This document shows, in pieces, positions 572-31,565 of a stretch of DNA of 32,223 nucleotides (position 1 is its first letter; each line of letters starts with the position of its first letter). A model generated the notes under the pieces. The model saw nothing but the letters and a program-made list of their open reading frames with translations, was not told the DNA's origin and searched no databases. The translations under genes and the position numbers were made by a program. The stretch lies in contig JAAYBL010000033.1 in NCBI GenBank assembly GCA_012718945.1, positions 1 through 32,223 on the forward strand, read 5' to 3'. Source of the DNA: Bacteroidales bacterium. Lineage in GTDB: Bacteria; Bacteroidota; Bacteroidia; Bacteroidales; UBA1402.

Positions 572-1009
572 CTAATCTTCCAATTCTTTTTTCACATCCC
601 TGAAGGCTAGAAATTCATTATAATCAAGGATGTAGTCTTCTTTTTGGTATACTTCACTGGCCAACACCATGCAAACGGCTCCTGAACTGAAATCGTCAAG
701 GTTACGCCACATACCGGGTTTTATATACAGACCCTGGTAGGGACGGTTTAAAAAGAAACTGCGTTTGCAGTGGCCATCATCGATGGTGACCCGAAAGGAA
801 CCTGAGGCGGCGATGATGAGTTGTTCCAACTCCCGGTGCGCGTGAGAGCCACGACCTTCCCCTCCAGGAACATCATAGAGGTAATACACGCGTTTTACAT
901 CGAATGGTAGGGTTATGCCGTTCTCAACGACGGTAAGGTTGCCCATCCTATCGCTGTGATGCTTATCGAGTTCAATCATCGAGCAATCAAATATGTTATA
1001 TTTTGCCAT
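572..1009 (-). CDS. FdtA/WxcM-like sugar 3,4-ketoisomerase (cupin), second of two tandem copies
   Basis: This 145-residue cupin resembles FdtA/QdtA, the enzymes that move the keto group of dTDP-4-keto-6-deoxyglucose from C4 to C3 before transamination. The family signature is intact: PFDVKRVYYLYDVPGGEGRG leads into SHAHRELEQ, with the paired active-site histidines at residues 56 and 58. The jelly-roll strands GSFRVTIDDG and the LASEVY...DY tail are also typical. Length matches the family (about 135-150). The start overlaps the end of the upstream paralogue by 14 nt, indicating translational coupling. The substrate would come from RmlA and RmlB, both encoded at 25-27 kb. Whether the product is the galacto or gluco epimer cannot be told from sequence here. 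No 3-aminotransferase is visible nearby, though it could lie beyond the left edge. Confidence 0.85.
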   Translation of the reverse strand: MAKYNIFDCSMIELDKHHSDRMGNLTVVENGITLPFDVKRVYYLYDVPGGEGRGSHAHRELEQLIIAASGSFRVTIDDGHCKRSFFLNRPYQGLYIKPGMWRNLDDFSSGAVCMVLASEVYQKEDYILDYNEFLAFRDVKKELED

Positions 1010-1412
1010 TGCTCTTCAGTTTTAAAAATTCATCGTATTCACGGATATAATCATTCTCATCGTATTTGGTGGAGGCAAATTCAAGCGCAATGGAGTTGGT
1101 GGAAAAGTTTTCCATCTCCCGCCAAAGCCCCTTTGGGATGTAAAGCCCATAGTAGGAACGGTTTAAGGTGAACGTCTTTTTTTGCCGACCATCATCGATG
1201 GTTACATCAAAAGCGCCAGACAAGGCAATGACAAACTCTTGCGTTTCTCTATAGGCATGACCGCCACGGCATTCGCCACCGGGCACATCATAGAGCCAGT
1301 AGGTGCGTTTGATTTCGAAGGGGATCTGATTATAGTTTTCAGCAAACGAAAGATTGCCCCTTACGTCGATAATCTTGGGAAGGTCTATGAGTTTAACATC
1401 GTTTATTGTCAT
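996..1412 (-). CDS. FdtA/WxcM-like cupin ketoisomerase, first of two tandem copies, active-site His replaced
   Basis: This 138-residue protein is clearly a paralogue of its downstream neighbour and lines up along its whole length (PFEIKRTYWLYDVPGGECRG, GAFDVTIDDG, LNRSYYGLYI, DYIREYDEFL). It keeps the DVRGNL element near residue 16 that is typical of FdtA-type enzymes. The active-site stretch reads RGGHAY, so the second histidine is Tyr54 while His52 is retained. This may change stereochemical outcome or reduce activity. It is the promoter-proximal gene of the fdtA-fdtA-ATP-grasp group. The 93 bp between it and the threonine aldolase stop hold only an imperfect -7-like box (TACTTTCG), so the promoter is uncertain. 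Fold assignment is firm, exact activity is not. Confidence 0.8.
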   Translation of the reverse strand: MTINDVKLIDLPKIIDVRGNLSFAENYNQIPFEIKRTYWLYDVPGGECRGGHAYRETQEFVIALSGAFDVTIDDGRQKKTFTLNRSYYGLYIPKGLWREMENFSTNSIALEFASTKYDENDYIREYDEFLKLKSNGKI

Positions 1413-1505
1413 AAAACAGGTATTTGTTCAAGGTTTCAACTCCAATGACAGTACCCGAAAGTACAAACATTTTCGCAGGTAGCAGCACGCATCTTGCATA
1501 AAAGC

Positions 1506-2528
1506 TCAATGTGCCGCTTGCCTGACTGTATCGAGCAGTGCTTCCACATCGTCTTCCGTGGTGTCAAAAGACGTAACCAGACGCAACTCGCCCTTTTCTT
1601 CGTTCCAGAAATAAAAGAACCATTTGGCTTGGAGTGCCTGAATCAGTGGTAGAGGCATGGTTAAAAAGAGGGCGTTGGACTCTACCTTTTGGGTAAACAC
1701 CACACCTGGTATTTCCTTTAAACCTTGGTAGAGCTTTTGTGCCATGGCATTGGCGTGTTTGGCATTGATCAGCCAAAGGTCATGACTGAGGTACACGCTA
1801 AACTGGCAAGCCAGGTATCGCATCTTGGAGGCTAGCTGCGCCGATTGCTTGCGGATATACTTGGCTTCGGGCAACAGGGCTGGATTGAGAATGACCACGC
1901 TCTCTCCCATCATCAGACCGTTTTTGGTACCCCCGAAACTCAGCACATCGATGCCACAGTCTGTGGTGAGGGCTTTCAAGGAGACGCCCAAATAGGCGGC
2001 TGCATTGGCCAGCCTGGCACCATCCATGTGTACATATAAACCGTTGCTGTGGGCCAGGTTTGTAATGGCGAGCAATTCTTCCACCGTATAGACGGTGCCA
2101 AATTCTGTACATTGTGACAGGTACACCACACCGGGTTGTGAATGGTGCTGATCGTTGAAACCGTGCAGACGGCTTCGGATGCCTTCCAGTGTCAACTTCC
2201 CATCGGAGGTCTGTATGGGCATCAACGGACAACCTGTACTTTTGACTGGTCCTCCGCATTCATCCACATATATGTGGGCCGTCTCGGCACAAAGTATAGC
2301 GTTGTAAGGCCTGGTCATCAACTGCAGGGCGATAATATTGCTCCCTGTACCATTGAATACGTAATAGGATTCACACTGTTCGCCGAATGTCTCTTTAAAC
2401 AAACGATCGGCGGCCTCGGTCCACGGATCGTTACCGTAACCGTACGCGTGATCTGTATTAGTCTGCATAAGGGCTTCCATCACGGCTGGATGGACACCCG
2501 AGTTATTGTCAGAAGCAAAACTGCGCAT
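1506..2528 (-). CDS. ltaE: low-specificity L-threonine aldolase (PLP enzyme)
   Basis: This 340-residue fold-type I PLP enzyme cleaves L-threonine or L-allo-threonine to glycine and acetaldehyde in the cytoplasm. Recognisable elements are the N-terminal FASDNNSGVHPAVMEAL, the AYGYGNDPWTEAA segment, the cofactor aspartate in HMDGARLANA (about residue 169) and the PLP lysine in SFGGTKNG (about residue 201). Its length and motif order match the beta-eliminating lyase/threonine aldolase family. It lies alone on the minus strand, divergent from the sigma factor gene, with a 99-bp shared upstream region. Family call is firm; preference for threo or allo substrate is not readable. Confidence 0.93.
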   Translation of the reverse strand: MRSFASDNNSGVHPAVMEALMQTNTDHAYGYGNDPWTEAADRLFKETFGEQCESYYVFNGTGSNIIALQLMTRPYNAILCAETAHIYVDECGGPVKSTGCPLMPIQTSDGKLTLEGIRSRLHGFNDQHHSQPGVVYLSQCTEFGTVYTVEELLAITNLAHSNGLYVHMDGARLANAAAYLGVSLKALTTDCGIDVLSFGGTKNGLMMGESVVILNPALLPEAKYIRKQSAQLASKMRYLACQFSVYLSHDLWLINAKHANAMAQKLYQGLKEIPGVVFTQKVESNALFLTMPLPLIQALQAKWFFYFWNEEKGELRLVTSFDTTEDDVEALLDTVRQAAH

Positions 2529-2627: not shown

Positions 2628-3149
2628 ATGGACGCAGCCACATTTAAGGCACTGTACCTGCCCTTTCACACGAAATTGTACCGTATCGCTTTCCACTTAC
2701 TGGAAAACGGCGACGATGCGGAAGATGTGGTGCAGGAAACGTACGTTAAATTGTGGGAAAAACGCGACGAATTGCCATTGATGCAGAACCCGGAGTCCTT
2801 CTGCGTGGTGATGGTAAAAAACCGCTGCATGGATGTGATGCGCTCCAAGCAATACCAATCGATTTCCTTTGATCCTGTCAAACACGAGCGTTCTTCTCCG
2901 GAAACGCCCTTGGAAACACTGGAAAACAGGGATTCGTTGGAACTGGTTGAACATCTGATGAGGAGTCTGCCAGCTCAGCAACAATTGGTAATGAAACTCA
3001 GGCACATGGATGATTGTTCTTTGGAAGAAATTGAACAGATTACTGGTTTAAGTGCTGTAAATATAAGGGTCCTGCTTTCAAGGGCCAGAAAGTCGATACG
3101 TGAATTATTCAATGCCCAATACCACCACTATGAAAGAAGCTTATTATAA
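2628..3149 (+). CDS. ECF-type RNA polymerase sigma factor
   Basis: This 173-residue protein has the two-domain layout of ECF (sigma-70 group 4) factors. Region 2 (about residues 10-75) contains DDAEDVVQETYVKLWEKRDEL, the RNA-polymerase clamp and -10 binding helix set. Region 4 (about 113-163) contains a helix-turn-helix, SLEEIEQITGLSAVNIRVLLSRARKSI, for -35 contact. Length is normal for the family. The downstream one-TM protein overlaps its 3' end, an arrangement seen for sigma/anti-sigma pairs. A palindromic -7-like element lies about 50 bp upstream. Target genes are not evident from this window, although the DUF4252 gene two places downstream is a natural candidate. Confidence 0.92.
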   Translation: MDAATFKALYLPFHTKLYRIAFHLLENGDDAEDVVQETYVKLWEKRDELPLMQNPESFCVVMVKNRCMDVMRSKQYQSISFDPVKHERSSPETPLETLENRDSLELVEHLMRSLPAQQQLVMKLRHMDDCSLEEIEQITGLSAVNIRVLLSRARKSIRELFNAQYHHYERSLL

Positions 3150-3642
3150 CGCATTATTGGATGCCTTTTACGAGGGCAACACCACGCTGGAGGAGGAAAA
3201 GGCACTGAAAGCCTTCTTCGAATCTGACAGGGTTCCTTTCGAGTTGCTGGAGGAGAAAAAACGGTTTCTGGCATGTTACGAGCCCATAGCTGTCAACGTG
3301 CCTGATGGTTTGCTTGGGCGGTTGGAAGCCTTGATTGATGAGAAAAGTCAACGTCAACCGCGTCCCTTGTTCAAATCTACTTGGATATGGACCACTTCGG
3401 CGGCAGCCAGCCTCTTGTTGTTTTTCTCTATCGGGTTGTCGACATTCAATGCGCCTGCATCAGGCGTTCCTTACACAGATACATTCACCAATCCTACGGA
3501 TGCTGCTCTTGAAGCCGACAGGGCTGTTCAGCTCATAGCCAATAAGTTGAACAGTGGTTACCGACAACTGGATTGTGCCAACGCCCGCATCGAGAAAACA
3601 GAGAAAACCGTCACTGAACAATTAATAAAAATGTCTAAATAA
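3130..3642 (+). CDS. one-TM protein overlapping the sigma gene, possible anti-sigma factor
   Basis: A 170-residue protein starting MKEAYYNALL. It has an acidic N-terminal half (EGNTTLEEEKALKAFF, FELLEEKKRF), one membrane helix at about residues 84-105 (WIWTTSAAASLLLFFSIGL) and a C-terminal part of about 65 residues likely in the periplasm. Two ATGs lie upstream in frame at 3100 and 3112. I chose 3130 because the translated start resembles other proteins of this kind, but no ribosome binding site decides it. It overlaps the sigma factor gene by 20 nt and is 8 bp from the DUF4252 gene. I see no zinc anti-sigma HxxxCxxC motif, so an anti-sigma role rests on position, size and topology only. Confidence 0.7.
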   Translation: MKEAYYNALLDAFYEGNTTLEEEKALKAFFESDRVPFELLEEKKRFLACYEPIAVNVPDGLLGRLEALIDEKSQRQPRPLFKSTWIWTTSAAASLLLFFSIGLSTFNAPASGVPYTDTFTNPTDAALEADRAVQLIANKLNSGYRQLDCANARIEKTEKTVTEQLIKMSK

Positions 3643-3650
3643 GAACCACC

Positions 3651-4130
3651 ATGAATACTAAAAGAATGCTCTTAATAGCCGTGGCTTGCCTGCTTAGCAG
3701 CCTTGTCATGGGGCAAAAGGATCTGATGGAACGTTATGCCAATATTGAGGGGGTCACCACTGTCTACATCTCTAAGTCCATGCTTCAGATGATGCCTAAT
3801 TTGGATATTCACATCAATATGAACACGAAAGACTTGGCGGGGCGTTTATCTGGTATCCTTATTTTAACCACCGAGCGCAAAAACCTGATAACGAACTTGC
3901 GCAAGGATGCACGGGCTTTTTACAACAACAAAGCGTTTGAAGTGCTAATGACAGTGAAAGATGAAGAGTCGCTTGTCAACTTTTACATCCGACGTAAAAA
4001 CGACAAACGGATAGCCGAGATGGTCATGGTCGTTGATGAGGGGGACGAATTCGTGTTAATTCAAATGACGGGAGACATGACCATGGAGGATATCAAAAAG
4101 ATGACCAAAGGTATGTCTAATCAAGATTAA
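3651..4130 (+). CDS. secreted DUF4252 domain protein
   Basis: A 159-residue protein with a clear signal peptide (KRMLLIAVACLLSSLVMG, cleavage expected before Q22). The mature part begins with the YANIEGVTTVYISKSMLQMM segment and ends with VLIQMTGDMTMEDIKKM, both typical of Bacteroidota DUF4252 proteins, whose function is unknown. No lipobox cysteine is present, so it is probably periplasmic rather than lipidated. It is the last gene of the sigma factor operon, 8 bp behind the one-TM protein. Such proteins often sit beside ECF sigma factors, suggesting an envelope-stress role, but that is inference. Confidence 0.8.
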   Translation: MNTKRMLLIAVACLLSSLVMGQKDLMERYANIEGVTTVYISKSMLQMMPNLDIHINMNTKDLAGRLSGILILTTERKNLITNLRKDARAFYNNKAFEVLMTVKDEESLVNFYIRRKNDKRIAEMVMVVDEGDEFVLIQMTGDMTMEDIKKMTKGMSNQD

Positions 4131-4248: not shown

Positions 4249-5649
4249 ATGAAACTTAATAAAATTGTAAACCGCTGGGTAGCCTTAGGCGTCAGTCTCG
4301 TAGGCATTATCTCCCTACTTATTCTCCAGTTTGTATGGCTCACAAACGCCTACGAAGTCTCCGAACAAAACCTTAAAGACAAATGCAAATTGCACCTCAA
4401 TGCCTCCATTGAGAAGGAAATGTTCATGAGGGCAAACAAATCTTCCTTAAAAATAGAAGTTGTTGATGAAGCCGATCATGAAGCCCCTCCACCAGAAAGC
4501 ATTATTCGCAAGGGAAATGTCAATAATATTGACGATTTCAAGAGTAGGATTCAAGACATCTTGTTATTTATGGGTAAAGAGTGCGACATAATTACTCTTG
4601 ATTCAATCTTTTCTTCCAACGTATCCAAAGACGTTGGTTTTATTCCCAGTCACATATTCTACTTAATAAAAGATTCTGCAGATACGCAGTATGAAATAAG
4701 TTTAAGACCAAACAAGGAAAAAGCGGTTCCAAGTATAGCCATTGACAAGAACAGCAAGGCTCTCAAAACCTTGAGGAATCCCATCACTGTCAGATTAAAC
4801 ACCTATCAAACCCTTATTATTGACATCACCGACCCCAGAGCCAATTTTATAAAGAGCGCCAAAAGTTACTTACTGCTCTCCATTGGTTTGTTAATGTTGG
4901 TTACATTAATACTCATCTTTTTAATGAGGGCTACCCTACGAGAGAACCGTTTTGTACGTTTCATCAAAGAATACACCAATGCTCTGACTCACGACCTGAG
5001 GTCACCTCTGAACAGCGTTCATATGGCCTCCAGCATCCTGTATGATGGCACTCTTTCAATAAAACCAGAAGAGAAGAAGGAGTACCTGCGCATTTGCAAA
5101 GAACAGAGCAAAAACATGCTCGACAGTATAGACCGTATCCTAACGGTGGCCAAAGCGGAACATACTGAGCTAGTTGTCACACCAAAAGCCATGCCGCTCC
5201 TACCCTTCCTTCAAGCGCAGAAGACGGCCTTTATTAATGACATGATCCATGAAAAGCCGGTAACAATCAACGTGAGTTGTGAACCGGAAAACCTCGAAAT
5301 ATGCTGGGATAAACCCTTGATGGAAAACGTAGTCAACAATTTGTTGGATAATGCCGTCAAGTATTCGTATGACAGTGTTGAGATAAATATAGAAGCACTA
5401 ATTCAAGGAAAAGACATTCACATTCGATTTAGCGACAACGGAATGGGCGTACCCACCCAAGACCTGGATGCCATCTTCAAATTTTTCCATCAAGGATCCT
5501 TGTTGGAAAGAAAAAGAAAATTCGGTTTTGGTATCGGCCTTAGCTTCTTGAAGAAGGTTGTCGAAGCTCACGACGGTAAGGTATTGGTCGAAAGCCAAGA
5601 GGATGCTGGTGCCACGTTCACGTTAATCTTCCCAATAGTAGCACATTAA
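4249..5649 (+). CDS. membrane sensor histidine kinase, orphan copy at left of the peptide locus
   Basis: A 466-residue sensor kinase with two membrane helices (about residues 11-33 and 204-225) enclosing a periplasmic sensor of about 170 residues with no domain I recognise. The HisKA phospho-acceptor is His248 in TNALTHDLRSPL. The ATPase domain shows the N box ENVVNNLLDNAVKYS, the G1 box DNGMGV and the G2 box FGFGIGLSFLKKVVEAH. It closely resembles the kinase starting at 10883 in N-terminus (LILQ-W-N-Y-ANxSS pattern) and catalytic half, so the two are paralogues. No response regulator adjoins it. It may act on the regulator at 12187. Its stop codon overlaps the stop of the convergent hlyD-like gene. 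Kinase function is firm, signal is unknown. Confidence 0.93.
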   Translation: MKLNKIVNRWVALGVSLVGIISLLILQFVWLTNAYEVSEQNLKDKCKLHLNASIEKEMFMRANKSSLKIEVVDEADHEAPPPESIIRKGNVNNIDDFKSRIQDILLFMGKECDIITLDSIFSSNVSKDVGFIPSHIFYLIKDSADTQYEISLRPNKEKAVPSIAIDKNSKALKTLRNPITVRLNTYQTLIIDITDPRANFIKSAKSYLLLSIGLLMLVTLILIFLMRATLRENRFVRFIKEYTNALTHDLRSPLNSVHMASSILYDGTLSIKPEEKKEYLRICKEQSKNMLDSIDRILTVAKAEHTELVVTPKAMPLLPFLQAQKTAFINDMIHEKPVTINVSCEPENLEICWDKPLMENVVNNLLDNAVKYSYDSVEINIEALIQGKDIHIRFSDNGMGVPTQDLDAIFKFFHQGSLLERKRKFGFGIGLSFLKKVVEAHDGKVLVESQEDAGATFTLIFPIVAH

Positions 5650-5660
5650 AAGTGCTTTTT
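5640..5660 (+). terminator. possible short intrinsic terminator between convergent genes
   Basis: AGCAC (5640-5644) can pair with GTGCT (5652-5656) around a 7-nt loop and is followed by a run of T. The stem is only 5 bp and the convergent stop codons lie in its loop. It could end the left kinase transcript, but the strength is doubtful. Confidence 0.3.
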
Positions 5661-6953
5661 GGAAAAACGGGTTACTGGCATGATGATGCGCTTCAACAGA
5701 CGGACATCTTCAGTAATAATGTCAGCAAAACCAGAAAGGGTTCCTTGGGCTGGTATGGGAAAGGCATAATTGGTTGTCAATCCCTCTGGGAAGACGATTT
5801 CTGCCACGAAGTAACCATCTTTTAACGGCACTTCAGAAAGACTTCTGACCATACCTTTGACAAACCCAAATTCTTTATCGGGGTAGTTATCAAAATGCAC
5901 CTGTACCGTTTGACCAGGGCTAACCTTGCCTGAGCCAGTTGAGGGCACCAACGCTTTACCAATGGGCGTAGAAGCCCCTGTTGGCATAATCGTAAACACA
6001 GTCTCACCTTCAATCACATTTTGGTTCAGGCTCCAATTTCCCATCAAATTGACCGTACCCTTTATTGGGCTACTAATCAAATATGTTTGCTGCCACTCTT
6101 TCAATTGAGCTTTCAATTGCTGAAATGCTTGACTAAGCGACTGTTTGTACTGACTCTCCTGTTCTCTGTCGTCTTGATTTAAATCAAGTACATTTTCCCG
6201 AATTTGAGTCGTCTCCACTTCTGCCTCCTTGATGGATGCATTCAAGGCACTCAGCGATTGCAGTACCTTCAAGCGATTGGTTTTGGATGCATCCAAATCC
6301 TCTTCAGAGACTACCCCTTTGACAAACAGGGCTGAATCCCGTTTATAGGTTGCTTCGGCATTGGTCAACTGAGCTTTCAACAAGCGCCGTTGCTCCATCA
6401 TTTCAAGCAGGTGTAACTTTCTGGCCCTGATTTGATCCTCTTTTAATTGAATTTTTCTTTTGTGGTACTCAACAGTCTGAAAGCGATCGAAATCCTCCAT
6501 GCTAGCCACCATGCGGGTATATGATTCCTGCAAGCTTCCCAATTGTAATACCGTATCTGATAATTGACTGAGACCTAACTTAACTCCTTCAGCATCAATT
6601 TGAAGATTCGTCAGACAGGCATCCAACCACAGCATATCGTTGTAATCAGCCGGATTTTCAATAACGGCCAATGGGGTGTTGGCCTCCACCAATGTCTGAT
6701 TGGTCACCAGCAGAGCCACTAATTTGCCGGTAGACCTGGCTTTTAAAACAGCGGGGGATTGCTCCATGTTTACGGTAACCTCCGCCTTTATAATGTCTGG
6801 GTATTTGAAGAACCAAGCTCCTATTAAAAGAACCAGGACAATCAGGGCAACAACGGTTATTCCCCAACGAATCAGGCCACCAGGTATATTGCGCATGACT
6901 TCCTGCACTTGTTCAGATGGCAAAACCGATTTTTGTACATTGTTCTTATTCAT
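5646..6953 (-). CDS. HlyD-family adaptor of the peptide exporter
   Basis: A 435-residue periplasmic adaptor (membrane fusion protein) that would link the inner-membrane ABC exporter to an outer-membrane channel. It has one N-terminal membrane helix (about residues 31-49, ITVVALIVLVLLIGAWFF). A biotinyl-lipoyl-like half follows (KARSTGKLVALLVTNQTLVEANTPLAVIEN). Then come a long coiled coil (about 95-285) and the returning lipoyl half with the beta-barrel (SPIKGTVNLMG, GQTVQVHFDNYPDKEFGFVKG). The start overlaps the ABC transporter gene by 4 nt, as for a co-translated export pair. Family and partner are clear. No TolC-like gene is in the window, so the outer-membrane partner must be encoded elsewhere. 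Confidence 0.92.
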   Translation of the reverse strand: MNKNNVQKSVLPSEQVQEVMRNIPGGLIRWGITVVALIVLVLLIGAWFFKYPDIIKAEVTVNMEQSPAVLKARSTGKLVALLVTNQTLVEANTPLAVIENPADYNDMLWLDACLTNLQIDAEGVKLGLSQLSDTVLQLGSLQESYTRMVASMEDFDRFQTVEYHKRKIQLKEDQIRARKLHLLEMMEQRRLLKAQLTNAEATYKRDSALFVKGVVSEEDLDASKTNRLKVLQSLSALNASIKEAEVETTQIRENVLDLNQDDREQESQYKQSLSQAFQQLKAQLKEWQQTYLISSPIKGTVNLMGNWSLNQNVIEGETVFTIMPTGASTPIGKALVPSTGSGKVSPGQTVQVHFDNYPDKEFGFVKGMVRSLSEVPLKDGYFVAEIVFPEGLTTNYAFPIPAQGTLSGFADIITEDVRLLKRIIMPVTRFSKKHF

Positions 6954-9145
6954 TGACCCAATTCTAATTGATTGCGTACCAGTTCGTAATAATAGCCTTT
7001 CTTGGCAGTCAGTGTTTGATGGTTACCTTCTTCCACAATACGTCCCTTTTCCAACACAACAATATTGTCAGCCCCTTTTACCGTACTCAATCGATGAGCC
7101 ACGACAACGGCCGTCTTTTGTGTCAGGAAAGCGTTCAATCGTTTCAAGATGACCTGTTCGTTGGTGGCGTCCAGAGCATTGGTAGCTTCATCAAAAAACA
7201 ACATTGAAGGGTTCTTATACACTGCCCTAGCGATTAGGATGCGTTGTTTTTGACCTTGACTCAGCCCCTGCCCATCCATACCAATCCGGGTTGCAAAACC
7301 AAGAGGCAAAGCCTCAACAACATCCATCAAGTTGGCCACGTAGGCTGCCGCTTGAAGACGTTCACTGTCAATGGATTCATCTCCTAAAGCAATATTACCG
7401 GCGATGGTATCGGAAAAAATATAACCATCCTGCAGAACAGAGCCCATGGCCTCGCGCCACAAATGTGGATTTATCATTTCCAATGGGGTGCCACCTATCC
7501 GTATCGATCCCTTGTTCGGGGAATAGAAACCCATAAGGAGTTTCACCAAGGTCGTTTTTCCGCTACCACTTGCTCCAACTATGGCCGTCACTTTACCCGC
7601 AGGAATACGTAAACTAAGATTTTCCAGGACATAATCCCGATCGGCACCATCATAACTGAAAGAGATGTTTTCGACCATCAGGCTTTGATCGATCGGCAGC
7701 ACATCCATACGAATCTGAGCGGGGCTATCTTCATCATCACGCCCATGTACTTCATTCAGGCGTTCCAAACTGATGGAGGCATCTTGATAAGACTGAGCAA
7801 AACCGATGAATTGATCAACCGGGGCGCTCAATTGACCAATTATGTAGGTGATGGCCATCATCATACCCAGTGTAATGTCTCCGGATACGACAGATTGAGC
7901 CGCCAAAAACGTAATCAAGATATTGGTCAATTGGCTAAAAAACACTGAGCCAACCTGCTGCAACTGGCCGATAGCCAGTCCTTTGATACTTATATGGAAT
8001 AAACGGACCTGGATTTGTTCCCATTGCCACCGTTTCTGCCGCTCACAATTGGCCAGTTTAATGTCTGGCATCCCTGAAATAAGTTGAATCAAATTGCCTT
8101 GTTCCTCTGAAGCTTGAGCGAATCGTTTATGATCCAATGCCCTTCTACGCTTCATAAACAACATGACATAGGCCACATAAAGTCCGTTTCCCAACAGAAA
8201 CAGCACAAGAATACTCCATTTATAATAGGCCAGAACGAGAGCGAAAATGAAGAAGTTGATAAAGGAGAAAACGAGGTTTACGGCATTTCCCGTCAGAAAG
8301 GTTTCAATACGTTTATGGTCGCCAATACGTTGCAGCAAATCGCCAATGGATTTTGTGTCAAAAAACCGCAGTGGCAGTTTCATAATCTTGATGAGAAAAT
8401 CGGCGATTAAGGATATTGTAATTCTGGTGTTGACATGCAACATAATCCAGCCACGAATAAACTCTACCGACAACCTTGCCACAAACAAAACGACTTGAGC
8501 AATCAACACCAACTTGATGAATCCCAGGTTGCCCTCAGCAATACCTATATCCACCAACGATTGCGTCAGAAAAGGAAAAATGAGTTGCAAGACGCTGATG
8601 GCAAATAATCCAATCAGCACTTGCGTCAAGTGCTTGTGGTAAGGTTTGAAATACTGTAGTAATGGCTTCAGGCCCCTGCCGGTAGACTGAACCTCTTCTT
8701 CGTAGGATTCTTCAAAATGAGGCCCCGGTTTAAGCAGCAATGCTACACCTTGGTTAGGTGTACTCATCCAGGATTTGGCTAACTCTGTCTCATCATACGT
8801 CAATAAACTGCCAACGGGATCAGCTACATGAATGCGGTATCCTTTGCGGGTTTTCTTCACATAGTAACAGACGACAAAATGCCGCTGACGCCAATGTAAG
8901 ATACAAGGCAAGGGGGCTTGCTCGAGCAATTGTTCCTGAGTAAGTTTTACCCCTGTCGTCTGAAAACCAATGGATTCGGCCGCTTCACTCAACCCCAGCA
9001 TACTACTGCCCGTCCGACTCATGGCCGAACGTTTGCGAATGGTTTCCAGGCTGTAGCGTTTTCCATAATATGCAGCAATCATCCTCAGACAGGTTGGTCC
9101 ACAATCCATCGAGTCCAATTGTTTATACAGTGGAAAACGCTTCAT
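6950..9145 (-). CDS. C39 peptidase-containing ABC exporter (PCAT) for a GG-leader peptide
   Basis: A 731-residue half-transporter that would cut the leader after the double glycine and export the core peptide. The N-terminal peptidase C39 domain (1-130) carries Cys15 (DSMDCGPTC), His89 (RQRHFVVCYY) and Asp109 (HVADPVG), a complete catalytic set. A six-helix membrane domain spans about 160-450. The nucleotide-binding domain has Walker A GASGSGKTT (about 522-530), signature LSQGQKQRILIARA and Walker B SMLFFDEAT. Length is standard for bacteriocin-type PCATs. It lies in the same operon direction as the GG precursor at 10433, 87 bp after the SPASM gene, and may also have its own promoter there. 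Confidence 0.95.
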   Translation of the reverse strand: MKRFPLYKQLDSMDCGPTCLRMIAAYYGKRYSLETIRKRSAMSRTGSSMLGLSEAAESIGFQTTGVKLTQEQLLEQAPLPCILHWRQRHFVVCYYVKKTRKGYRIHVADPVGSLLTYDETELAKSWMSTPNQGVALLLKPGPHFEESYEEEVQSTGRGLKPLLQYFKPYHKHLTQVLIGLFAISVLQLIFPFLTQSLVDIGIAEGNLGFIKLVLIAQVVLFVARLSVEFIRGWIMLHVNTRITISLIADFLIKIMKLPLRFFDTKSIGDLLQRIGDHKRIETFLTGNAVNLVFSFINFFIFALVLAYYKWSILVLFLLGNGLYVAYVMLFMKRRRALDHKRFAQASEEQGNLIQLISGMPDIKLANCERQKRWQWEQIQVRLFHISIKGLAIGQLQQVGSVFFSQLTNILITFLAAQSVVSGDITLGMMMAITYIIGQLSAPVDQFIGFAQSYQDASISLERLNEVHGRDDEDSPAQIRMDVLPIDQSLMVENISFSYDGADRDYVLENLSLRIPAGKVTAIVGASGSGKTTLVKLLMGFYSPNKGSIRIGGTPLEMINPHLWREAMGSVLQDGYIFSDTIAGNIALGDESIDSERLQAAAYVANLMDVVEALPLGFATRIGMDGQGLSQGQKQRILIARAVYKNPSMLFFDEATNALDATNEQVILKRLNAFLTQKTAVVVAHRLSTVKGADNIVVLEKGRIVEEGNHQTLTAKKGYYYELVRNQLELGQ

Positions 9146-9182
9146 TTGCTGGTGGTATGGTCTTTTAAGGCTTTAGTAGGTC

Positions 9183-9190
9183 CAAATATA
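9183..9190 (-). promoter_or_regulatory. internal -7 box ahead of the exporter genes
   Basis: The minus strand reads TATATTTG at 9190-9183, a full match to TAnnTTTG, 37 bp upstream of the exporter ATG. A TTTG lies 16 nt further upstream, slightly closer than usual for a -33 element. It would let the exporter pair be expressed apart from the precursor. Confidence 0.45.
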
Positions 9191-9232
9191 GGACAAAATT
9201 GCGAATCAAACGCCGTAATTCAATGGTTTGCC

Positions 9233-10225
9233 TTATTTCCTTGGGTCATACCTACATTTTAAGGGCTTCGAATAGGGATTGCCCGTTTCGATGGTATACG
9301 CCCTGCAATCCTGACATACATACCTCAGCTCACACTGGTTGCACACCTCAATTTTATCTTTGGTGATATCCCAGTGCTTTCTAAACGCGTCAGACTGGAC
9401 AACGCTCGTCAGCGTTGTCTCAGCGACGTGTCCATATCGTTCTTTCATCGAGGGGCAGTTTTTCACGTAACCCTCTTTGTCAACGGCAATTTTCTTATAG
9501 AGGCAGTTGTTGAAATACATTGATTCCCAATACAATCTTTGCTCTGCAATACAATACAAATCGCCGGTCACTCCGCATTTATTCTCACTACGAATGATCT
9601 CTGACGTACTGATAAGTACCAACCCGTTGTGTTTGTAAATCACATTCTCGGACGTATTGCTCAACGTCAGTTTGCTTAGCTTGGGAAATTCGTTTTTTAA
9701 AGCCACCAAGGTCTTAACAGAACACTCAACACTTGCTTCAATACACACTTCGACCTTTTCGATGGACGACTTGGCCGTTATCAACAACGCCCGCTTTAAT
9801 TCATCCAAGGGTAACTGGTAATAGTAACGAATCTCCAACGCTTTGCAACCCAACATATCAAGTTCACCAACAATGGGCTCCAACTCATGGGTAGAGGTAG
9901 CGGAAAAATCGACAATAGCATTGTTAATCTGGCTATTATCCTCAATTACAGGAAGCTCAATCAATGAATCATCGATGGGTCTGTGAGAGAAATAACCAAA
10001 CTCATTATGATATAGGTAAGAAATATATACTTCTATGGCGTCTCTCTCCTGTTGCGTCATGCCACTGGTGAGAAGGCCATATGTTCCTGACCTGGAAACA
10101 TCCAGGAAATCATACAGGATTAGTGGAATAGGTTGAATGATATTTCGTTGTAGATCGCATACAACCGCCCGTTTGCAACCCTTCACAGGATGACAGTAGG
10201 AATACAGATTGAAATAACGATCCAT
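9233..10225 (-). CDS. SPASM-domain peptide maturase of grasp-with-spasm type, lacking a radical SAM motif
   Basis: A 330-residue protein resembling the SPASM partner of 'grasp-with-spasm' RiPP systems. Its N-terminus (YFNLYSYCHPVKGCKRAVVC, then DLQRN) matches that family, as does the C-terminus ending in KCRYDP. The C-terminus holds a SPASM-type iron-sulfur cluster motif, CX2CX5CX2C at Cys295, 298, 304 and 307, with Cys324 behind it and more cysteines near 231-263. No CX3CX2C radical SAM motif occurs anywhere, so it probably binds auxiliary clusters without doing classical SAM radical chemistry. The middle is leucine-rich and irregular. It starts 11 nt after the 64-residue ORF. I am fairly sure of the family by memory of its ends; the reaction is unknown. 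Confidence 0.75.
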   Translation of the reverse strand: MDRYFNLYSYCHPVKGCKRAVVCDLQRNIIQPIPLILYDFLDVSRSGTYGLLTSGMTQQERDAIEVYISYLYHNEFGYFSHRPIDDSLIELPVIEDNSQINNAIVDFSATSTHELEPIVGELDMLGCKALEIRYYYQLPLDELKRALLITAKSSIEKVEVCIEASVECSVKTLVALKNEFPKLSKLTLSNTSENVIYKHNGLVLISTSEIIRSENKCGVTGDLYCIAEQRLYWESMYFNNCLYKKIAVDKEGYVKNCPSMKERYGHVAETTLTSVVQSDAFRKHWDITKDKIEVCNQCELRYVCQDCRAYTIETGNPYSKPLKCRYDPRK

Positions 10226-10236
10226 ATCTCAACCAA

Positions 10237-10431
10237 TCACAATTGAACTACCTTGTACGTTCTTGAGGCGTTGATCAACCGTGAAATGCTTTTGTAATAG
10301 ACGGGGCCCTCTTCCTCGACCGATTGGAAACCACACAAAACCATGTAGTTGGCTATTGGCCTACTGAAAACATTCCCGTATAACTGTTCCGCGTTAAGAA
10401 AGCGGTTTATATCGTTGCTTGATTGTCCCAT
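10237..10431 (-). CDS. unrecognised 64-residue protein between precursor and SPASM maturase
   Basis: A 64-residue ORF whose ATG begins one nucleotide after the TAA of the precursor gene and which ends 11 nt before the SPASM gene, so it is very probably translated as part of the operon. It has no signal peptide, membrane helix or GG motif. It contains a hydrophobic middle (SRPIANYMVLCGF), an acidic turn (SVEEEG) and a basic C-terminal third (YYKSISRLINASRTYK). In the related three-gene cassettes this position is taken by an ATP-grasp ligase of about 330 residues. This ORF is far too short for that and shows no ATP-grasp motif. It could be a leader-binding protein, an immunity protein or a remnant. 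I do not recognise it. Confidence 0.6.
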   Translation of the reverse strand: MGQSSNDINRFLNAEQLYGNVFSRPIANYMVLCGFQSVEEEGPVYYKSISRLINASRTYKVVQL

Positions 10432-10432
10432 A

Positions 10433-10597
10433 TTAATTACCTCTTACACCAACTCTAATAATAATTCGACCATCAGGTAAAACCTCATATTCAGCGATGA
10501 GCTCACCACCTGAAATCTTGTTCATTTCAGAACTGGATAATTCGTTAAAACTTTTTAAATCAAATTCATTTCTACTTTGTCCTTTGTTCGTTTTCAT
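10433..10597 (-). CDS. RiPP precursor peptide with double-glycine leader
   Basis: A 54-residue peptide starting MKTNKGQSRNEFDLKSF. The leader (1-31) ends NELSSSEMNKISGG, the ELS...M..I.GG pattern cut by C39 peptidases of ABC exporters. The predicted core is 23 residues, beginning ELIAEYEVLPDGR and ending RVGVRGN. It has no Cys, Ser, Thr, Lys or Trp, but three Glu, one Asp, one Tyr and three Arg. The frame stays open upstream to an ATG at 10699. That extension would come from the repeat array and promoter, so I set the start at 10597, about 20 nt behind the expected transcription start. It is the first gene of the maturation-export operon. Confidence 0.85.
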   Translation of the reverse strand: MKTNKGQSRNEFDLKSFNELSSSEMNKISGGELIAEYEVLPDGRIIIRVGVRGN

Positions 10598-10625
10598 AAA
10601 GTGTATTGTTTGAGTGTTGATACGG

Positions 10626-10658
10626 CAAATATAGAGCCCATAAGAGCATTGAGCGCAA
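10626..10658 (-). promoter_or_regulatory. promoter of the peptide operon
   Basis: The minus strand has TTG at 10658-10656 (-33) and TATATTTG at 10633-10626 (-7, exact match to TAnnTTTG) with a 22-nt spacer, inside the 17-23 nt known for Bacteroidota. The start point would be near 10619, about 20 nt before the precursor ATG. The decamer array starts 4 bp upstream of the -33 element. Confidence 0.7.
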
Positions 10659-10661
10659 TGA

Positions 10662-10732
10662 AAAACCTTAGAAAACCTAAGCAAAACCTTAGAAAACATG
10701 AGGAAGACTTAGGAAATCTTAGAAAACCTTAG
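10662..10732. repeat. seven near-tandem 10-bp repeats, likely operator array
   Basis: Seven copies of a decamer with consensus AAAACCTTAG (plus strand) begin at 10662, 10672, 10683, 10693, 10703, 10713 and 10723. The intervals are 10, 11, 10, 10, 10 and 10 bp, one helical turn each. Units 1, 3 and 7 are identical; the others are AAAACCTAAG, AAAACATGAG, GAAGACTTAG and GAAATCTTAG. Read in the direction of the peptide operon the unit is CTAAGGTTTT. The array abuts the -33 box of the peptide promoter. OmpR/PhoB-type regulators bind direct repeats at about 10-11 bp periods, and one is encoded at 12187. Confidence 0.85.
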
Positions 10733-10851
10733 ATAATAAAAGATTCTACTTTCATTGCTCGATTTTCCATCAGAATGCAAATATGGCAGGCAATTCTTCA
10801 TGTATCCACTATAATAATCTTATATCGGCCATCAAGCTGAATTGATTTTTT

Positions 10852-10859
10852 TATCTTTG
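10852..10859 (+). promoter_or_regulatory. -7 box of the right kinase-regulator operon
   Basis: TATCTTTG matches TAnnTTTG and lies 23 bp before the kinase ATG at 10883. I found no -33 TTTG at the usual distance. Confidence 0.5.
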
Positions 10860-10882
10860 CATGTACTTCAAGCCAAAAAAAT

Positions 10883-12175
10883 ATGCTAACAATCAAAGGG
10901 ATCAGGATTGTTTCAGTGTCAGGATTATTACTTTTATTAATTCTACAATACTCCTGGTTTAGCAACTCCTATAAGATCCTAGAAATTGATATACTGAAGA
11001 AGTGCGACGATGCACTTATAGAAAGTACTGATTTACACGCGTATGAAAGAGCCAATCAAAGCAGTAAAAGCGTTGAATATACTTCAAATGATCATGTTGA
11101 AGAGAGTGTTGTTTATTCAAAAACACTTAGCGGTACAAGCGATTTAAATACTCAATTACAAGCCCTTCTAATTAGTATTGGTCGCCCCACCTCTCTCCCC
11201 CGCCTGGACACTCTGTACGCAGAAAGCCTTAAGAAGAAACTGGGATTTGTACCATCATATAGCATACAATTGGTGAACGATTCGGTCAAGGAAGCGAACG
11301 AATCAAATAAATATGCCCTATATAATAAGGTGGTCGATGATCAATACGTTGAGGTTATATTGACCGCACCACTCAGATCCATCCTGAGACAAGCGCAGTT
11401 TATTGTAATCGTATCCATCTTGCTGGTCGTCATGATTGGCGTCATCTTGATATTGCAACTCAAGAGCATGTTAAGAGAGAATAAGTTTGTCAACTTCATC
11501 AAAGAATATACCCATGCATTGACGCATGAATTGAAAACACCCATTAGCGGTATTTATATGTCATCCTCCATGCTGGCATCGGGCAAGCTTGAAGACAATC
11601 CTGCATCCAGGCAATTGCATTATACAATCTGCAAGGATCAAAGTTCCAAGTTGCTCAAAACGGTGGAAAGAATACTACTGGTAGCAAAGGCCGAACACGC
11701 CGCCATTGTGCCCAACATCGAAGCGGTAGAAATGAATCCATTCATTGAAAAGACAGCCGAAGCGTTTAGAAAAAACAATTACAGACAAAAACAGCTCACA
11801 TTGACGACTAACACCGAACCAACGTCGCTAACATGCAACCTGGATCCTGTTTTGATGGAGAATGTTTTGAGCAATCTGATTGACAACGCCATTAAATACT
11901 CCAACGATCAAGTGGACATCCACATTGATTGTCGGTGTGAAAAACGCTCCCTACTGTTGTCAATCAAAGACAATGGTTTTGGCATGAGTGATAAAGAAAT
12001 TAAAAACATCTTTACCAACTTCGAGCGTGGCGACAAAGTAGAAGGCAAAGGCATTGATGGTTTCGGAATAGGACTCAACTATGTCAACAAAGTTATTACC
12101 GCTCACAAAGGACGCATAACTGTCAAAAGCCAGGAAGGCCTTGGAAGCACATTCATCATCGAGATACCCTTATAA
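10883..12175 (+). CDS. membrane sensor histidine kinase paired with the OmpR-type regulator
   Basis: A 430-residue sensor kinase. Two membrane helices (about residues 8-24 and 173-192) flank a periplasmic sensor of about 145 residues without recognisable domain. The phospho-acceptor is His215 in THALTHELKTPI. The ATPase domain has ENVLSNLIDNAIKYS, KDNGFGMSD and the G2 stretch GFGIGLNYVNKVITAHKG. It is a paralogue of the kinase at 4249. The gene is divergent from the precursor operon across a 285-bp region that holds the decamer array, and the response regulator follows after 11 nt. A role in sensing the exported peptide or its effects is plausible from position only. Confidence 0.94.
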   Translation: MLTIKGIRIVSVSGLLLLLILQYSWFSNSYKILEIDILKKCDDALIESTDLHAYERANQSSKSVEYTSNDHVEESVVYSKTLSGTSDLNTQLQALLISIGRPTSLPRLDTLYAESLKKKLGFVPSYSIQLVNDSVKEANESNKYALYNKVVDDQYVEVILTAPLRSILRQAQFIVIVSILLVVMIGVILILQLKSMLRENKFVNFIKEYTHALTHELKTPISGIYMSSSMLASGKLEDNPASRQLHYTICKDQSSKLLKTVERILLVAKAEHAAIVPNIEAVEMNPFIEKTAEAFRKNNYRQKQLTLTTNTEPTSLTCNLDPVLMENVLSNLIDNAIKYSNDQVDIHIDCRCEKRSLLLSIKDNGFGMSDKEIKNIFTNFERGDKVEGKGIDGFGIGLNYVNKVITAHKGRITVKSQEGLGSTFIIEIPL

Positions 12176-12186
12176 ATAGAACAGAC

Positions 12187-12879
12187 ATGATTAAACTACT
12201 GCTGGTTGAAGACGACGAAGTCCTGGGATTCATCATTAAAGAAGGCATGGAGCTCATTGGTAATTACGACGTTCTATGGGTAAGCAACGGGCAAAAAGGA
12301 ATGGAAGCCTTTGAATCATTTCAGCCGGACATTATAGTTTCCGACATTGAAATGCCAAAAATGTCAGGATTGGAGTTTGTGCAACGAATACGTGAAATCG
12401 ATGAAGATGTGCCCATCATACTCGAGACCTGTGTCTCTTCCAGCAAAACCATTTTGGAAGCCTATTCCCTGGGGATTGACAACTACATCAAAAAGCCTTT
12501 TCTACCTGATGAGTTGGATGCCTACATACAAAGTCTTCTCAAACGTATCCATTTAAAGAATAACACCCGAAAAACCGATTCGAATATCATCTTGTTGGGC
12601 GACATCGAGTTTAACACGAGCCAACAAAGCCTTTCCACGAGCGATGGGATCATCAATCTATCGGGCAGGGAATCCAAACTGCTTGAGCTGCTGTATCAAA
12701 ACATCAACGAAATAGTCCCCAAAGACGTCATTGCAGAAAATATATGGGGAGGAGAAAAGTACTTTACTCAACAAAGACTGGACGTTTTCATTTACACCAT
12801 ACGCAAGTATTTATCGTCTGATAGCAGCGTGCAAATCAGAACGATGCGCAGCTTAGGCTATATGCTCACCATTGAATGA
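12187..12879 (+). CDS. OmpR/PhoB-family response regulator
   Basis: A 230-residue regulator. The receiver domain (1-120) has the acidic pair Glu8-Asp9-Asp10, phospho-acceptor Asp53 in IVSDIEMPKMSG and the conserved lysine in YIKKPF. The DNA-binding domain (about 135-230) is the winged helix of the OmpR/PhoB class, with INLSGRESKLLELLYQN, RLDVFIYTIRKYL and the closing wing IRTMRSLGYML. It is 11 nt behind the kinase gene and surely its partner. The repeat array at 10662-10732 fits the way this class binds DNA and is the best candidate target. It may also serve the orphan kinase at 4249. Confidence 0.94.
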   Translation: MIKLLLVEDDEVLGFIIKEGMELIGNYDVLWVSNGQKGMEAFESFQPDIIVSDIEMPKMSGLEFVQRIREIDEDVPIILETCVSSSKTILEAYSLGIDNYIKKPFLPDELDAYIQSLLKRIHLKNNTRKTDSNIILLGDIEFNTSQQSLSTSDGIINLSGRESKLLELLYQNINEIVPKDVIAENIWGGEKYFTQQRLDVFIYTIRKYLSSDSSVQIRTMRSLGYMLTIE

Positions 12880-22175: not shown

Positions 22176-23504
22176 TCAAATGGGTGTTACAGCATTACCA
22201 ATGCTGTGATAGCTGAAACCAGCAGAGATCAATTCTTCAGCCTGGTAGATGTTACGGCCGTCGAAAACGCAAGGCTTGTTCATCAGCTTTTTGACGACAG
22301 CCCAGGATGGTAGACGGAAGGCCTTCCATTCTGTCACCAATAACAGTGCATCGGCGCCCAGTACGGCATCATAAATATCCTTGGCATACAAAACACGATC
22401 ACCCAAGAGTCGCTTAGCCTCCTCCATGGCAATAGGATCGTACACCCTAACGGTACAGCCCGCATTAAGCAACTGATTGATAATGACCAACGAAGGAGCC
22501 TCACGCATATCGTCAGTCTCAGGTTTGAATGCCAACCCCCACAACGCAATAACTTTGCCTTTCAGGTCGGGCATGTTTGCCTGCAGTTTGTTGAACAAGA
22601 CGTGTTTTTGATCTTCATTCACCGCTTCAACGGCTTCCAGTATACGCAAGTTGTACCCATTTGACTGAGCCGTTTTGATTAATGCCTTGACATCCTTGGG
22701 GAAACAACTGCCACCATAGCCAACTCCCGGATAAAGGAACTTGCTGCCAATACGTGGATCGGTTCCTATCCCGCTACGTACCATATTAATATTGGCACCG
22801 ACGAGCTCACACAGGTTGGCTATGTCGTTCATGAAACTGATACGCGTGGCCAGCATGGCGTTGGCCGCGTATTTGGTCATTTCGGCCGACGTGATATCCA
22901 TGAAAATGACCCTGAAGTTGGTCAGAAAAAATGGACGGTATAACTTGGTCATCAAGGCCTGAGCCCTCTCGGAATCAACTCCGACAACCACCCTGTCCGG
23001 TGACATGAAATCCTTGATGGCGGCTCCTTCCTTTAGAAATTCCGGATTGGAGGCCACATCGAAAGTGAGTGACGATGAGCGCTTGGTGAGTTCATCCTGG
23101 ATAGCGGCCTTGACCAATTTATGGGTTCCCACTGGCACGGTACTCTTGGTCACAAAAAGCAAATAGTCTGTCATACACCGCCCCACAGTCCTGGCTACGG
23201 CTTCTACATACTTCAGATCAGCGCTACCATCTTCATCCTGAGGTGTACCAACGGCACAAAATAAAATGTCAATGTTTTCTTTAAGCACCTGTTCCAGGTT
23301 CGTTTCAAACCGCAAACGGCCAGCGTGTTGATTGCGGAGCACCATTTCTTCCAAACCTGGCTCATAAATAGGTAACACGCCTTTTCTCAGGTTTTCGATT
23401 TTGGTGGTATTCACATCAACACAGACAACCTCTGTGCCGTTTTCAGCAAAACAAGCACCGGTTACCAAACCGACATAGCCCGTTCCAACAATGGCAATTC
23501 TCAT
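22176..23504 (-). CDS. ugd: UDP-glucose 6-dehydrogenase
   Basis: A 442-residue cytoplasmic enzyme oxidising UDP-glucose to UDP-glucuronate with two NAD+. The NAD-binding motif MRIAIVGTGYVGLVTGACFAE opens the protein. The middle domain has PEFLKEGAA and the C-terminal domain has the catalytic cysteine Cys267 in GVGYGGSCFPKDV. Length is typical. It is the last gene of the nucleotide-sugar operon, 17 bp after the fused kinase gene. The related UDP-ManNAc dehydrogenase is less likely given the overall match to the Ugd type. Confidence 0.94.
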   Translation of the reverse strand: MRIAIVGTGYVGLVTGACFAENGTEVVCVDVNTTKIENLRKGVLPIYEPGLEEMVLRNQHAGRLRFETNLEQVLKENIDILFCAVGTPQDEDGSADLKYVEAVARTVGRCMTDYLLFVTKSTVPVGTHKLVKAAIQDELTKRSSSLTFDVASNPEFLKEGAAIKDFMSPDRVVVGVDSERAQALMTKLYRPFFLTNFRVIFMDITSAEMTKYAANAMLATRISFMNDIANLCELVGANINMVRSGIGTDPRIGSKFLYPGVGYGGSCFPKDVKALIKTAQSNGYNLRILEAVEAVNEDQKHVLFNKLQANMPDLKGKVIALWGLAFKPETDDMREAPSLVIINQLLNAGCTVRVYDPIAMEEAKRLLGDRVLYAKDIYDAVLGADALLLVTEWKAFRLPSWAVVKKLMNKPCVFDGRNIYQAEELISAGFSYHSIGNAVTPI

Positions 23505-23521
23505 ACGACTAGTTTCAACGA

Positions 23522-24670
23522 TTAGAGACCTTTCCGGCGTATTTTCAGCCGTATGGCATTTTCAAGGGGTTGCTCACAGACTAACGCCATGTAACCTCCG
23601 CCCCCAGCACCAGCCAATTTCCAAGCCAGTGCCTTGTCTTTATATTGATCAATCACTTCGGCCACATCAGACGGCATCATCGCAGGGAACATGGCTACCT
23701 GAGCGTTGAATGAAGCCAGAAAGGACGCTGCAAAAGCAGACAGGTCTTTTTTCAGTATGGCATCCCAACAGGCATCAGCAGCTGAAGTCAGTGCCTTGAC
23801 GTTGGTTTCATTGATCTGCGTATTCTCCAGGACATTAAGTCCTTGTTTGCGCGGCCAAAGTAGAATCATGCACACGTGTTCTTCCAACCAGCTCAACACG
23901 GATTCATCGTGGCAAGACTCTATCGCTTCAGGCCAGTAGTTGCCATTGTAATAATGCCGGTTCAAGCCAGGCATACATATCCCGATGGCATCCTGAGCAC
24001 CGGAAATTTCTGATCTTCCCGGTTCATTTTCAAAACGAAACAGCATCTCGGCGAGTTTTTCCGGATGATCCAGTGGCAAATGATACGGCCACAGCTTGCG
24101 GGCAGCGTTGCGTGTCGAGGTTGACATACCACAGCGCTCCATAAACTCGATGGTAGGTTCCAACGACATGGTGATGGCCCAGCCAGCTCCATATTTCGAC
24201 ACATACGGTTGGTCTATCCATGTTCCAGCCAAATCCAGTCGGAATGGCAGTTGGCATTGATTAGTCGTTCGCAGCGATGTAGTAGAACGTGCAGGCAGTC
24301 CAGCCTCAGGTATACGCTTGAGAATCAGGTAATCAATACCCAGTTCGGTACAAAGCTTTTCCTTGGCCGGTGAATGTCCGTCTTCGTTGACCACAAACAG
24401 GTCTGGCATAAACCGCCTGAGGTCTTCTTCAAAGTCCAGGATACCGGAGCCCACATTGACCCAGGCATCGGTGACATAACGAATGGATTTGACCATATAC
24501 AGGCGCTCCTGTTCTGAATTGACCGTACTACGGCCTTTCAGTTCAGAGACTGTAGCATCGGACCCAAGGCCGACATACAAGTCTCCGTAACTGGCTGCTT
24601 CCTTGAAAAAGGCCACGTGGCCGCTGTGAAGCATATCATAACAGCCTGATACAAAAACACGTTTCTTCAT
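23522..24670 (-). CDS. fused HxGH nucleotidyltransferase and GHMP sugar kinase
   Basis: A 382-residue two-domain protein. Residues 1-134 are a small cytidylyltransferase-type domain with the HxGH motif (GCYDMLHSGHV, His15 and His18) and a C-terminal RSTTSLR resembling the ISTT nucleotide-binding element. Residues 138-382 are a GHMP kinase with the first motif FRLDLAGTWIDQP, the ATP loop GMSTSTRNAA (181-190), SGAQDAIG and the third motif KLAGAGGGGYMAL (351-363). The likely path is phosphorylation of a free sugar at C1 followed by nucleotidyl transfer. It resembles HldE or Fkp in logic but has a different domain make-up and order. Sugar and nucleotide are unknown. It lies between rmlC and ugd with gaps of 24 and 17 bp. 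Confidence 0.85.
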   Translation of the reverse strand: MKKRVFVSGCYDMLHSGHVAFFKEAASYGDLYVGLGSDATVSELKGRSTVNSEQERLYMVKSIRYVTDAWVNVGSGILDFEEDLRRFMPDLFVVNEDGHSPAKEKLCTELGIDYLILKRIPEAGLPARSTTSLRTTNQCQLPFRLDLAGTWIDQPYVSKYGAGWAITMSLEPTIEFMERCGMSTSTRNAARKLWPYHLPLDHPEKLAEMLFRFENEPGRSEISGAQDAIGICMPGLNRHYYNGNYWPEAIESCHDESVLSWLEEHVCMILLWPRKQGLNVLENTQINETNVKALTSAADACWDAILKKDLSAFAASFLASFNAQVAMFPAMMPSDVAEVIDQYKDKALAWKLAGAGGGGYMALVCEQPLENAIRLKIRRKGL

Positions 24671-24694
24671 GTGTCCGAACGTTTATGCATATGG

Positions 24695-25240: not shown

Positions 25241-25242
25241 GA

Positions 25243-26361: not shown

Positions 26362-26373
26362 AATCTGATGCTA

Positions 26374-27240: not shown

Positions 27241-27277
27241 GGCATGATTGTTGGTTCAAAAACAAAGATAGAAAAAA

Positions 27278-28348: not shown

Positions 28349-28350
28349 GA

Positions 28351-29502: not shown

Positions 29503-29554
29503 AAGTATGTCTCTGAATTAATAATGTAAACCCCTGAAAATCTTTATAATGACA

Positions 29555-31471: not shown

Positions 31472-31496
31472 GTAGTTAGATCTGGTTATCGTCCAG

Positions 31497-31504
31497 CAAA
31501 AGTA
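31497..31504 (-). promoter_or_regulatory. -7 box of the nucleotide-sugar operon
   Basis: The minus strand reads TACTTTTG, an exact TAnnTTTG match followed by C, 26 bp upstream of the GTG at 31471. No clear -33 element is seen. It argues against the longest open-frame start at 31525. Confidence 0.5.
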
Positions 31505-31565
31505 GTGAAATGATTCAATAAACACCTATTAATGGATGATAATTATGTATATTAAAAAGCTTGTT

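Follow-up and report, generated by a model that had tools for sequence, protein, structure and literature searches.

Grasp-with-spasm clusters combine an ATP-grasp ligase, GwsG (TIGR04192), with a SPASM protein, GwsS (TIGR04193), and correspond to group 14 of the graspetides (PMC13097080) and to branch 5 of PMC8939145. GwsS accompanies every group 14 ligase (PMC13097080), and small proteins named LPL and likened to PqqD always lie directly upstream of the SPASM gene (PMC8939145). Here we describe a related locus on a 32,223-nucleotide contig of an uncultured Bacteroidales bacterium (JAAYBL010000033.1, assembly GCA_012718945.1). This whole stretch, referred to as the window, is contig C233 of genome G000 (2.96 Mb, 89.8% complete, 316 contigs). 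The locus retains GwsS and lacks the ligase. With a probability of roughly 0.55, we interpret it as a grasp-with-spasm descendant that has become a ligase-free system for a secreted peptide, under two-component control and with GwsS as the leader-binding protein; that the product is not a graspetide is part of this interpretation. An earlier note, made from the letters alone, had pointed to a resemblance with the grasp-with-spasm class and to a possible signaling or antagonism system not yet described in Bacteroidota. The resemblance is borne out by a TIGR04193 score of 240.7 bits for the window SPASM protein (NCBI cut-off 175), while the idea of an undescribed system gives way to that of a variant derived from an established type of cluster.

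The missing ligase, already remarked on in that note, is a property of the entire genus. TIGR04192 found no GwsG in the four genus genomes at E<=10, and none is present in the window locus or in that of another species of the genus (G355, locus L043), including the usual place. GwsS occurs in all four genus genomes and in none of nine genomes from the two other genera of the family. Across a sample of the order, 20 of 393 genomes carried GwsS over the cut-off, 17 of them together with a TIGR04192 match (E<=0.001); the other three are exactly those of this genus. In non-duplicate loci, 92 of 97 GwsS open reading frames (ORFs) are directly preceded by GwsG; this set was chosen partly by GwsG presence and is thus not an unbiased sample. 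The five exceptions are L043 of this genus, three loci cut by contig ends (L044, L060, and L064), and L074 from Chryseotalea. The latter was considered as a second case of GwsS without GwsG and rejected, as GwsG sits just downstream on the opposite strand. An independent draw from the phylum gave GwsG in 14 of 14 loci examined (of the 29 retrieved, the remaining 15 were weak SPASM-only matches); for relatives in named genomes, the best 80 of 366 were examined. In G214 (L057 6932-9284), a 399-aa frame that by eye looks like a transposase separates two halves of GwsS, and the upstream GwsG is intact.

Phylogenetic placement supports loss of the ligase. In the GwsS tree, the four ligase-free rows form a clade (support 98) within a ten-row clade (support 96), and the six other rows of the latter bear GwsG (Azobacteroides, Prevotella amnii, Sphingobacterium JB170, DX1.bin102, Paludibacter, and Arcicella). 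The tree places a single loss of GwsG within a ligase-bearing clade, before the known genus members diverged; with the quick method and midpoint root used here, ancestral absence would require a root on the solo branch. Three GwsG-bearing loci from Acidobacteriota metagenome-assembled genomes (L091, L096, and L100) branch together within Bacteroidota GwsS, a placement that could reflect gene transfer or a binning error.

The apparent loss could still conceal a ligase that works in trans or whose gene falls in a stretch missing from the assembly, since the genomes are incomplete and PF08443 recovered a few ATP-grasp frames. Four of four independent assemblies lack it, though, as does the usual place in both complete loci, and the core offers no donor residues. 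The nine PF08443 matches in the four genus genomes, judged by size alone, fall in frames whose lengths run from 389 to 1102 aa and none of which is near the roughly 320 aa of the ligase, and a ligase in trans was rejected on these grounds together with the TIGR04192 result. We regard a hidden ligase as very unlikely. The counter-case named in the earlier note, an ATP-grasp maturase elsewhere in the genome with a matching precursor, was looked for and none was found.

The precursor peptide differs from those of ligase-bearing loci as well. Its 31-residue leader ends in ELSSSEMNKISGG with the GG site and is followed by a 23-residue core, ELIAEYEVLPDGRIIIRVGVRGN; the core length predicted earlier matches this 54-aa precursor split after GG. 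Translation is assigned to the ATG at 10597, and the mechanically listed 88-aa frame starts farther up, inside the promoter. Against TIGR01847 the precursor scored 16.7 bits (cut-off 15.7) with a query that carried one extra residue before the Met. Ser, Thr, Lys, and Cys are all absent from the 23 residues of the window core, and a single Ser occurs among the 19 residues of the G355 core, IWYLVRREDGSIGLVFRRD, which is likewise free of Cys. Ligase-bearing sister loci encode cores such as YTANTVTIPGGTDDGDDGIRND and YSLNTVTCYSNGHAGDDGSASADGVYGD. Among 88 distinct ligase-associated cores, counted after removal of identical cores and those shorter than 15 aa, none had zero Ser/Thr and one had a single Ser/Thr. 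Precursors were listed by a permissive GG pattern, under which 21 of 87 GwsG loci yielded none and some ORFs are probably false (e.g., the third from L051). The two solo cores are suggestive of a core that lost the ligase donor residues along with the ligase. Aligned by eye, both genus cores share a Y-x-V...DG-x-I pattern. In the two other genus genomes, independent assemblies break at the same spot (contigs C39/C33 in G291 and C34/C59 in G400), hiding the precursor; this spot is possibly variable or repetitive.

The remaining components are retained. Precursor, ORF64, GwsS, C39 ABC exporter, and HlyD adaptor form, in this order, a tight minus-strand operon, with the sensor histidine kinase HK2 and the response regulator divergent from it and a second kinase, HK1, convergent with HlyD (Table 1). 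All parts named in the earlier note are present: the precursor, the 64-residue ORF, the SPASM protein, the C39 exporter, HlyD, two related kinases, and one OmpR-type regulator. They do not amount to two complete two-component systems, as HK1 has no adjoining regulator of its own, and a block starting at 5646 leaves HK1 (4249-5649) outside. Conservation in relatives, which that note asked for and which speaks against a chance arrangement, is found as the same gene order in G355, with identities to the window proteins of 46% (HlyD), 65% (ABC exporter), 48% (GwsS), 56% (HK2), and 59% (regulator), alongside the occurrence of GwsS in all four genus genomes. The G355 locus has two tandem HK1-like kinases beside HlyD (L043 3965-6753) versus one in the window. 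Although the loss of the ligase might point to a decaying relic without function, all reading frames are unbroken in the window and in G355, GwsS is 48-63% identical between species with conserved cysteines, and the promoter layout is kept; a relic is highly improbable.

Table 1. Features of the ligase-free locus in window coordinates. Domain calls were made with Pfam and NCBIfam.
Feature	Position	Strand	Basis
HK1, sensor histidine kinase (HisKA + HATPase_c), 37% identical to HK2	4249..5649	+	Pfam
HlyD-type adaptor of the exporter	5646..6953	-	Pfam + NCBIfam
C39 peptidase-containing ABC exporter	6950..9145	-	Peptidase_C39 (PF03412), ABC_membrane, ABC_tran
GwsS (predicted RRE fold, partial radical-SAM-like barrel, SPASM)	9233..10225	-	family match + predicted model
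ORF64, 64 residues, in the position of the small protein encoded between the GwsG and GwsS genes elsewhere	10237..10431	-	
GG-leader precursor, 54 aa	10433..10597	-	
Precursor promoter, -7 box TATATTTG of Bacteroidota type	10626..10633	-	
About seven 10/11-bp repeats (CTAAGGTTTT), candidate operator	10662..10733	-	
HK2, sensor histidine kinase	10883..12175	+	
OmpR/RprY-like response regulator (Response_reg + Trans_reg_C)	12187..12879	+	Pfam + NCBIfam

Outside the block, sugar-nucleotide and polysaccharide genes flank the region (window 575-2528 and 22179-31525), including an FdtA-like pair, dTDP/GDP-sugar enzymes, and a capsule-type epimerase. Just before HK1 (window 2628-4127) lie genes for a sigma-70-family (ECF-like) sigma factor, a 180-aa protein of unknown type, and a DUF4252 protein.

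GwsS is the component from which a ligase-independent role has to be understood. The window protein retains all SPASM cysteines (PF13186, 23.5 bits, cut-off 21.5), and 88 of 94 GwsS proteins carry both SPASM cysteine motifs. The CX3CX2C radical-SAM motif occurs in none of the 94, the window protein included. PMC8939145 describes the SPASM protein of branch 5 loci as a radical SAM enzyme; that label is doubtful because CX3CX2C is missing. The earlier designation as SPASM-only also falls short, as an AlphaFold model (66 GwsS proteins in the input alignment; pLDDT 93.8, pTM 0.88) predicts an N-terminal RRE leader-binding domain and a partial radical-SAM-like barrel ahead of SPASM. Residues 3-79 (about 2-81) superpose on the lasso RRE 6jx3_B (B1) with Z 9.3 and an rmsd of 2.2 over 77 residues, and the same region matches the RREs of TbiB1 (5v1v_A, Z 8.7) and PbtF (8t19_A, Z 7.9). 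Residues 98-330 match PqqE (6c8v, Z 12.6, rmsd 5.1 over 201), and the segment from about 95 to 330 matches the radical-SAM/SPASM enzymes SuiB (Z 11.5) and CteB (Z 11.4), with Foldseek in agreement for SuiB and CteB. No sequence relative of GwsS was found among solved structures, and no experiment on GwsS in the open-licence PMC literature. The RRE-containing SPASM maturases SuiB and CteB, together with PqqE, come close in fold, with GwsS finding its best structural matches among RRE and radical-SAM/SPASM proteins, but the GwsS barrel is partial and has no CX3CX2C. Taken together, GwsS resembles a pseudo-radical-SAM protein that would carry iron-sulfur clusters and bind the leader.

This architecture also allows GwsS to be read as a true maturase, whose SPASM iron-sulfur clusters would, with ORF64, modify the core (e.g., at Tyr, Arg, or Asp-Gly) independently of the ligase. 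Retention of the cysteines, an intact GwsS in four species, and the pattern common to both cores in the by-eye alignment fit such activity. However, the absence of CX3CX2C across the family implies no usual radical-SAM chemistry, and the lack of Cys in either core implies no thioether. We consider a maturase role a doubtful, if serious, alternative.

ORF64 was listed earlier as unknown. The gene is there, but it is not wholly without context, as it occupies the LPL place directly upstream of GwsS, where grasp-with-spasm clusters have their small protein (PMC8939145). In ligase-bearing loci, the GwsG-GwsS gap of about 190-275 bp contains a small ORF with the consensus LPl...Yqt...FYKPISKii. ORF64 (...YYKSISRLI...), its G355 homolog (...NFNKFISRLL...), and the G400 homolog, of which the end is visible (...FNKNISRLV...), have a K-x-I-S-R motif in common at the same location. 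The motif arose in 24 of 20000 shuffled ORF64 sequences, having been spotted before being tested. ATG-started ORFs of at least 25 aa occur in 91 of 92 GwsG-GwsS gaps, some surely chance frames, and 45 of the 91 carry the motif. A protein search with ORF64 gave no match (E<=10) in G291 or G355, which belong to the same genus, and chance-level matches only in two other genera. Compared with the LPL proteins of branch 5 (PMC8939145), ORF64 agrees in position, in size (~65 aa), and in the C-terminal K-x-I-S-R found in many LPLs; it differs in lacking an evident LPL motif and in a YKVVQL-type tail common to the genus. That ORF64 might be a GwsG remnant was set aside without a direct alignment, given that GwsG-bearing loci also have the small ORF with the shared C-terminal motif.

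Regulation is built into the locus, as the earlier note had proposed, and in the genus the block is conserved together with its neighboring regulator. HK2 adjoins the regulator in the window and in G355, the regulator follows the HK2 end in G291, and both lie at one contig end in G400. No HK2 match was seen in any ligase-bearing locus examined, and a distant response-regulator match appears in 4 of 96 loci, one of them from this genus. Regulation as such is not unique to the ligase-free locus, because PMC8939145 reports a link between OmpR-type regulators and branch 5.

Between the precursor and HK2 lies the repeat array, and a related array occupies the same place in G355 (L043 about 11900-11950), where its strict form occurs once in the genome. 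At five of six sites (window, G355, and contigs C20, C31, and C258 of G000), exactly 32 bp separate the end of the last unit from TAnnTTTG, which we take to be the Bacteroidota -7 box; the background for this layout is 0.00036 per position. At the sixth site, C57 of G000, an imperfect last unit, CTAAGGTTC, precedes CATGTTTG instead of TAnnTTTG at 32 bp, as seen by eye and with no script hit. An array private to this locus was rejected given the copies on C20, C31, C57, and C258. The gene behind the C31 array encodes a protein with a Por secretion tail, and that behind the C258 array (L184) a C10 peptidase with a Spi domain; the start of its signal peptide seems to lie in another frame than the rest of the protein. 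Together, these phased-repeat promoters, including L183-L186 on the other G000 contigs, may form a two-component regulon with genes for secreted proteins among its members, and adjacency suggests that the array is paired with the neighboring regulator.

Under the preferred interpretation, an ancestral grasp-with-spasm cluster would have lost GwsG once before the genus members diverged, and the core the Ser/Thr donors required by the ligase, with precursor, small protein, GwsS, C39 exporter, and adaptor kept. HK2, perhaps with HK1, would phosphorylate the OmpR-type regulator, which would bind the helix-phased repeats and switch on the precursor operon. The GwsS RRE, perhaps with ORF64, may bind the leader and keep the peptide ready for the exporter or for some small modification. 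Cleavage after GG by C39 would follow, and the 23-residue peptide would be exported.

The exported peptide may instead be a bacteriocin-like antagonist produced under two-component control. A GG leader and a C39 exporter are common to class II bacteriocins, and the leader gives sub-threshold matches to bacteriocin families. This combination does not in itself indicate activity, however, and no immunity gene was recognized among the scanned neighbors; antagonism is judged unlikely. A secreted signal is weakly favored over a bacteriocin because each locus has two or three kinases and no immunity gene was recognized nearby. It is conceivable, at rather low odds, that after loss of the ligase a graspetide factory became a Bacteroidota peptide signaling system under two-component control, in which GwsS alone binds the leader and serves a linear secreted peptide as maturase or escort, and with a regulon that in this genome extends to a T9SS-sorted protein and a C10 protease.

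Several observations weigh against the preferred interpretation. Only two precursors are visible in the genus, as in G291 and G400 a contig break falls between the ORF64 homolog and HK2, and the four genus genomes are 89-94% complete. The ORF64 profile score is weak (7.9 bits), the score of its L043 homolog was matched by 11 of 1000 shuffles, and the ORF64 structure model is poor (pLDDT 65.3, pTM 0.19). Leader binding by GwsS is predicted from the fold match. Finally, the array occurs at four other places in G000 and so does not belong to this locus alone.

The genus represents a natural deletion experiment among uncultured Bacteroidales, in which GwsS, the small protein, and the exporter persist without the ligase or its substrate residues; with both gone, the role of GwsS here must be ligase-independent. 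Expression of three small genes could thereby assign a function to the large uncharacterized GwsS family, and the promoter array offers a testable regulon for a two-component system beside a peptide exporter. GG-leader pheromone loci of the BlpC/ComC kind likewise unite leader, C39 exporter, and two-component system, and the leader gives weak matches below threshold, but the present locus has an OmpR-type regulator and the additional GwsS and ORF64. No report of GwsS without a ligase was found in the open-licence PMC literature. With grasp-with-spasm clusters (PMC13097080 and PMC8939145), the locus has in common GwsS, a GG-leader precursor, a small protein directly upstream of GwsS, a C39 exporter, and HlyD; it departs from them in the absence of GwsG throughout the genus, in a core devoid of donor residues, and in the divergent kinase-regulator pair beside the operon. 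It is built of known parts but fails the features that define each type, the ligase for grasp-with-spasm and the donor residues for graspetides.

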